The position numbers and the translations under genes are program-made. 46,782 bases of DNA from Gammaproteobacteria bacterium (GTDB lineage Bacteria; Pseudomonadota; Gammaproteobacteria; Steroidobacterales; JABDMI01). Under the pieces are notes generated by a model. It searched no databases. It was not told the origin of the DNA and saw only the letters and a program-made list of their open reading frames with translations. Each line of letters opens with the position of its first letter. Position 1 is the first letter of the stretch. This document shows, piece by piece, positions 1,390 through 2,050 of the stretch. The DNA is taken from positions 1-46,782 of the forward strand of contig JABDMI010000041.1 in NCBI GenBank assembly GCA_013001575.1, in the 5' to 3' direction.

Positions 1390-1482
1390 GTGCTCTCCGT
1401 TGGGTCCATAATTTTCCCTTGTCAGAATAATCCGACAAACTCTTAAGCGACGCCTACAAATCGCTTTCGCTATAGTACACCC

Positions 1483-1872: not shown

Positions 1873-1894
1873 TCGCTACATTAAAAGCTATCAC

Positions 1895-1998
1895 AATACT
1901 GCTTACGGATAAGCAGGGTGATACCCATCAAGGACGATGCACCATGGACGGTTTGCTCAGGACGAGCGCGCAAGACAGCCCACTTCGGTGGGCTTTTT
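1895..1998 (+). ncRNA. Putative CsrA/RsmA-sequestering small RNA (CsrB/RsmY/RsmZ type)
   Basis: Four consecutive hairpins present GGA in their loops: CTGCTTA-CGGA-TAAGCAG (1899-1916), CATC-AAGGAC-GATG (1926-1939), ACC-ATGGAC-GGT (1941-1952) and GCTC-AGGAC-GAGC (1955-1967). An intrinsic terminator closes the unit at 1977-1998. GGA in hairpin loops is the established binding determinant of CsrA/RsmA, and sponge RNAs of the RsmX/Y/Z class are about 100-130 nt with several such loops and a terminator. The 5' end is uncertain: it could have its own promoter inside the end of comEA or be processed from the comEA transcript. I see no GacA-type upstream palindrome. A RsmY/Z homologue cannot be named by sequence alone. 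Confidence 0.65.
1977..1998 (+). terminator. Intrinsic terminator
   Basis: AGCCCAC, TTCG tetraloop, GTGGGCT, then a T run. It ends the comEA transcript and the putative small RNA. Confidence 0.9.
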
Positions 1999-2050
1999 GC
2001 ATTTATTCTTATCACTATCTTGAACATTGAAATTGCAGTATGCTGGATCC

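Follow-up and report, generated by a model that had tools for sequence, protein, structure and literature searches.

The analysed stretch of DNA, 46.8 kb in length and referred to here as the window, carries a comEA gene at positions 1528-1872 of the + strand. Its predicted product is a helix-hairpin-helix periplasmic DNA-uptake protein of 114 aa (PF12836, 63 bits; TIGR00426, ComEA helix-hairpin-helix region, 74.2 bits against a cut-off of 53.1). A profile match identifies the downstream gene (2027-2698) as tpm, encoding thiopurine S-methyltransferase, and a gene for a MAPEG protein comes after it. Between comEA and tpm lies an array of GGA-bearing hairpins that ends in an intrinsic terminator (about 1889-1998, + strand). 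Upstream of comEA, alignment with a genus mate revealed an 18-bp palindrome that resembles UvrY/GacA sites, TGTCAGAATAATCCGACA (TGTCAGA-ATAA-TCCGACA; 1420-1437, +). An open reading frame of 57 aa with a GTG start (1918-2091) spans the gap and overlaps tpm in a different frame; it was rejected as a chance frame.

A scan of 1400-2700 on both strands, which takes in comEA and the gap, found no sigma-70-like promoter at its threshold but two terminator-like sites, so the array is most likely carried on the comEA message. The sequence TATAGT at 1471-1476 (+), read by eye, could be the -10 element of the comEA promoter, and its counterpart in the genus mate is TAAAGT within conserved surroundings. 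No good -35 element accompanies it, as would be expected if the promoter depends on an activator. The Shine-Dalgarno sequence in the comEA leader contains GGA. In the genus mate the leader (L040:2952-2985) has a GGA hairpin, CGAC-AGGAA-GUCG, ahead of an AAGGAG Shine-Dalgarno sequence; the leader hairpin is kept in the window with AAGAA instead, which leaves the Shine-Dalgarno sequence as the sole leader GGA.

The GGA-hairpin array

GGA occurs in the gap at exactly 1907, 1932, 1946 and 1960. When 1880-2010 (+) is folded, all four GGAs lie in loops and the terminator follows them; the minimum free energy is -42.2 kcal/mol (z -3.6 relative to shuffles), and none of 200 shuffles was as stable. Hairpin 1 (1889-1923, +) is two-tiered, with an outer stem UAUCAC/GUGAUA, an inner stem CUGCUUA/UAAGCAG and a CGGA loop whose GGA (1907-1909) has a loop probability of 1.0. 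Hairpin 2 (1926-1939, +) is CAUC-AAGGAC-GAUG (GGA 1932-1934, loop probability 0.64), and hairpin 4 (1955-1967, +) is GCUC-AGGAC-GAGC (GGA 1960-1962, loop probability 0.99). Hairpin 3 (1941-1952, +), ACC-AUGGAC-GGU, is weak, with a stem of 3 bp (GGA 1946-1948, loop probability about 0.42-0.43). The terminator, detected by a terminator scan, is AGCCCAC-UUCG-GUGGGCU followed by a U run (1977-1998, +). The array starts about 16 nt past the comEA stop codon and ends at 1998.

Ensemble sampling of 1873-1998 gives an expected 3.04 GGAs in hairpin loops. Dinucleotide shuffles of the array (n = 500) have a mean of 0.19 and a maximum of 1.93, and none reaches the observed value. Among 4666 windows of 126 nt from both strands of the 46.8-kb window, the top three all overlap the array, and the next unrelated spot scores 1.85. 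That these loops arose by chance in an ordinary terminator region is very improbable; hairpins are plentiful in short intergenic stretches close to terminators, but both the shuffles and the ranking of the windows speak against this explanation. A preliminary description of this DNA had proposed four serial GGA hairpins and a terminator at 1895-1998. The fold, the shuffles and the ranking agree with a looped GGA at each of the four positions and with the end at 1998. The start has to be moved to 1889, where hairpin 1 begins, and the GGA of the weak third hairpin is looped in 42% of the ensemble.

GGAs in hairpin loops and an intrinsic terminator at the 3' end are traits of the CsrA-sponge class. 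The position of the array in the comEA 3'UTR, on the same strand and ahead of the terminator, is that of RsmU-type RNAs.

Conservation in the genus and comparison with Rfam models

One genus mate with a comEA gene was available, an uncultured gammaproteobacterium (G002, contig CAJQOG010000054.1). Its ComEA protein is about 62% identical to that of the window, and behind its comEA there is again an array, which ends in the same terminator. Hairpin 1 has other arms (AACUUGCAA/UUGUGAGUU inside CUUUAGC/GCUAAAG) in the same two-tier form, with an AGGA loop (z -5.8). Hairpins 2 (AUC-AAGGAU-GAU) and 4 (GCUC-AGGAU-GAGC) are retained with the final loop base altered, and at the place of hairpin 3, ACCAAGGAAGGA, the GGA is retained in a poorer stem. 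The ensemble count of looped GGAs is again 3.04, which none of 500 shuffles reaches. The retention of GGA loops while the arms of hairpin 1 changed contradicts an origin by chance, in a comparison of two sequences that is distinct from a covariation test over many. A relative with the terminator and without the GGA loops would speak against a sponge, as the preliminary description pointed out; G002 keeps both, which favours that reading. tpm is absent from the G002 locus, where the MAPEG gene comes directly next, so the array goes with comEA and not with tpm.

A DNA search with the gap in 59 relatives gave one real match, in G002; the others were terminator-sized pieces. The sister genome G001, which is 73% complete, gave no comEA match and so has no bearing on conservation. 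A two-sequence covariance model of the 3' half of the array (R1) found the genome of the window and G002 at E values of about 1e-19 among 296 genomes of the window's order, and beyond the genus it gave nothing apart from one weak match in G261 (E 0.0013).

At gathering thresholds, a search of the 46.8-kb window with Rfam found only tRNAs. At relaxed thresholds the array matched rsmX (RF02144) at 1912-1998 with 32.8 bits (E 1e-4), the only strong Rfam match there. Across the genome the array is the best of 14 weak rsmX matches, the next being 11 bits lower at 21.8 bits. The gathering score is 56 bits; membership in RF02144 was therefore rejected, and the array is not filed in any named Rfam family. 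The check with Rfam covariance models that the preliminary description proposed thus supports it in part, in that rsmX has its best match in the genome at the array, and in part does not, in that 32.8 bits lies below 56. Matches to isrB (19.0 bits), STnc350 (16.4 bits) and Atu_C8 (13.9 bits) are far under their cut-offs and were discarded as chance matches driven by the terminator.

The match to rsmX spans the full model, with AUCAAGGAnGAU, the CAGGA loops and the terminator aligned, and the middle part of the model is missing from the array. RsmX, RsmY and RsmZ of Pseudomonas are stand-alone genes, which is a further difference of RsmX from the array. The rsmX match and the Pseudomonas precedent are compatible with an independent small RNA gene that is transcribed from a promoter of its own within the last part of comEA. 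Such an arrangement is quite unlikely, because the scan of 1400-2700 gave no sigma-70-like promoter and because the conserved palindrome lies upstream of comEA rather than beside the array.

RsmU of Xanthomonas and arrays behind comEA in other genomes

A CsrA-sponge RNA at this location is known. RsmU (sRX061) of Xanthomonas campestris pv. campestris is cut from the comEA 3'UTR and occurs in two forms, of 117 and 77 nt; it begins 25 nt after the comEA stop codon and is no longer seen once the comEA promoter has been deleted (PMC7694677). Its binding by RsmA was demonstrated by gel shift and co-immunoprecipitation, and overexpressing it reproduces some of the effects of deleting rsmA (PMC7694677). 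RsmA binding and the overexpression effect persist when all four GGAs are changed to AAU, and strains that lack RsmU appeared normal, with no phenotype (PMC7694677). On the basis of BLAST, its authors considered RsmU to be limited to Xanthomonas (PMC7694677). The preliminary description knew of no such location behind a competence gene for this class, a point that RsmU corrects; its guess that the RNA might be processed from the comEA mRNA would fit this precedent.

The array resembles RsmU in lying directly behind comEA in the 3'UTR, in its serial GGA hairpins followed by an intrinsic terminator, in size (about 110 nt versus 117 nt), in distance from the stop codon (about 16 nt versus 25 nt), and in that no promoter of its own was found, here by a consensus scan. 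It differs in its order within the Gammaproteobacteria, in its neighbour gene, tpm, and in that no sequence similarity was recognized beyond the motif, RsmU having been set beside the array by description and geometry. Because R1 finds essentially only the genus, the sequence does not show that the array and RsmU descend from a common ancestor. The transcript, processing and protein binding demonstrated for RsmU are predicted ones for the array.

CsrB and CsrC of E. coli share with the array the serial GGA loops that titrate CsrA. They are stand-alone genes with a UvrY site far upstream, are much longer, and have many more GGA sites. RsmW of Pseudomonas aeruginosa is an RsmA-binding RNA that, as proposed here for the array, is apparently processed from the 3'UTR of a gene (PMC4950607). 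Unlike comEA, its host gene PA4570 does not belong to the competence genes; three of the seven GGAs of RsmW are in loops, and a gacA mutation raises its level instead of lowering it (PMC4950607).

The loss of RsmU on deletion of the comEA promoter (PMC7694677) is a further argument against an independent small RNA gene. The Xanthomonas work also bears on a role in cis, in which CsrA would hold or protect the comEA message through the hairpins, by way of stability or termination, and free sponge RNA would be negligible. The stability of the comEA message in Xanthomonas drops when RsmA is lacking, and RsmA binding by the full message relies on its untranslated regions and not its coding part (PMC7694677). 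The GGA of the comEA Shine-Dalgarno sequence and the leader hairpin of the genus mate would also suit regulation in cis. This explanation is nevertheless unlikely: four serial loops and a terminator exceed the needs of a single cis site, the array is at the 3' end and distant from the ribosome-binding site, and the known relative RsmU accumulates as RNAs of 77 and 117 nt (PMC7694677).

The regions downstream of comEA were collected from named genomes, from the window's order and from 250 genomes of the order to which Stenotrophomonas koreensis belongs, and the GGAs in hairpin loops were scored in the first 180 nt past the comEA stop codon. No genome was common to the draws from the two orders, from which the window's order is taken to be distinct. 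Among 225 distinct regions, 31 have a score of at least 2 on the sense strand versus 1 on the antisense strand; the counts are 20 versus 0 for at least 2.5 and 12 versus 0 for at least 3. These counts do not represent independent events, since the regions come from related species. In a separate comparison, 3 of 105 comEA genes and none of 400 other gene ends had a score of at least 2.5. Arrays occur, for example, in Stenotrophomonas ginsengisoli (L105), S. koreensis (L108), Lysobacter defluvii (L113) and Lysobacter sp. GX 14042 (L093). Within the window's own order, most comEA genes are without one. At one locus (L292) the terminator ends 141 nt past the comEA stop codon, compared with 142 nt (25 + 117) for RsmU, so that the locus may belong to Xanthomonas; this is a geometric match and not an identification. 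The recurrence of arrays behind comEA in many genera, against the single antisense case, again disfavours a chance origin.

The upstream palindrome and a putative CsrA sponge

The palindrome is conserved upstream of comEA in the genus mate as TGTCAGACTAATCTTACA (TGTCAGA-CTAA-TCTTACA). It resembles the UvrY site of E. coli csrB, TGTGAGAGATCTCTTACA, for which the stated consensus is TGTAAG-N6-CTTACA (PMC4682653). The pattern TGTNAGA-N4-TCTNACA was found with at least 10 of 12 matching positions in 13 of 129 comEA upstream regions; the reversed pattern was found in none. On these results the pattern was widened to TGTMRGA-N4-TCYKACA and then applied to newly fetched upstream regions. At least 12 of 14 positions matched in 13 of 20 array-bearing genomes, compared with 4 of 20 without an array, two of these four having GGA-rich tails of lower score. 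For 123 loci with both flanks, a set that partly overlaps the 20 + 20 comparison, the association of array and palindrome has a Fisher p of 2e-4, which is indicative only, because the pattern was widened after some of the data had been seen and the species are related. A check of papers on Xanthomonas gave nothing on the palindrome.

Genome-wide, TGTMRGRN4YCYKACA has four sites in the window's genome, three in G002 and one, the comEA site, in G312; the reversed control has 0 or 1, and 0 in the window's genome. In the window's genome, TGTAAGACACCCCCTACA (L368:387-404 = G000:C21:387-404) is found 48 bp ahead of a comM-like gene whose product has an Mg-chelatase ChlI domain (YifB). The palindrome also precedes orthologous minor pilin genes of the GspH/FimT type in G002 (L127:1501-1518) and G001 (L125:1501-1518). 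In G522, of the Stenotrophomonas order, it lies just upstream of csrA (L370:1501-1518) as well as before an array-bearing comEA, and CsrA and its sponge may therefore share a regulator in that genome. No array was found downstream of perfect-palindrome sites elsewhere. The placement of the sites before comM-like, minor pilin and csrA genes points to a competence regulon.

One response regulator of the window's genome (C102:584-1207) has UvrY/SirA/GacA as its best family, with 178.5 bits, below the cut-off of 280 bits. The regulator of comEA may be of the GacA/UvrY type or, equally, a competence regulator, since comM in the window's genome and minor pilin genes in its sister genomes have the same palindrome in front of them. 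The window's genome has one csrA gene (86.4 bits), which by eye adjoins an aspartate kinase gene. Its product is a canonical CsrA in which the RNA-binding residues L4, R6, R7, V42, H43, R44, E45 and E46 are all present, so that the host has the partner a sponge RNA would bind.

The array is most probably a CsrA-binding sponge of the RsmU type derived from the comEA 3'UTR; a probability of about 0.78 is assigned to this reading, and the probabilities of this and the three alternatives overlap in part. The preliminary description had offered a CsrA/RsmA sponge as a candidate, and this appears to be the best reading of the evidence, given the looped GGAs, the conservation in the genus mate and the RsmU precedent. 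It also draws on the rsmX match, the best in the genome, the canonical CsrA, the arrays in Xanthomonadales, the co-occurrence of the palindrome, and the lack of an inner promoter. Against it stand the rsmX score below the cut-off, the weak hairpin 3, the caveats from the RsmU mutant and the missing phenotype, and the near confinement of R1 to the genus.

If the array acts in this way, a regulator at the palindrome would switch on comEA. Transcription would pass through comEA and halt at the terminator. As for RsmU in Xanthomonas, the structured tail would then persist or be excised as a small RNA of about 110 nt. Its three to four GGA loops, judged by the motif and the canonical CsrA, would bind CsrA and lower the level of free CsrA. 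Switching on DNA uptake would thereby also relieve CsrA repression of target messages.

The array appears ordinary as a class and notable in extent, as a putative member of the CsrA-sponge class at the location known from RsmU, in another order. The evidence from these genomes indicates that arrays in the tail of comEA are probably much more widely spread than reported. It suggests that the link between competence and CsrA is wider too, so that the one-genus RsmU would become a candidate for a general connection of natural competence with the CsrA switch. The wider link is based on a separate order, the genus mate, Stenotrophomonas, Lysobacter and other Xanthomonadales genomes. A more far-reaching proposal is tentative, and rather doubtful as yet: that comEA 3'UTR sponges are old and widespread in the Gammaproteobacteria, and that a regulator acting at TGTMRGA-N4-TCYKACA, before comEA, comM, minor pilin genes and sometimes csrA, couples competence expression to release of the CsrA regulon. 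The palindrome provides a testable handle on the comEA regulator. The 3'UTRs of competence genes are suggested as a place to seek Csr sponges that Rfam models have overlooked and that perhaps do not reach the cut-offs of those models.

Other arrangements were seen behind comEA. In an order mate of the window (G037, L169:1723-1950), a hairpin series with eleven GGAs lies between comEA and galU; its sequence is unrelated to the window's array. In several Lysobacterales genomes (L083:2768-2860, L197 and L078:2756-2830), the stretch between the comEA stop codon and its terminator holds four or five AAGGA motifs, most of which are unpaired; such a series could be a single-stranded version of this sponge. 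Several Lysobacterales genomes, including G297 (C46), have two or three copies of comEA, some of them on one contig.
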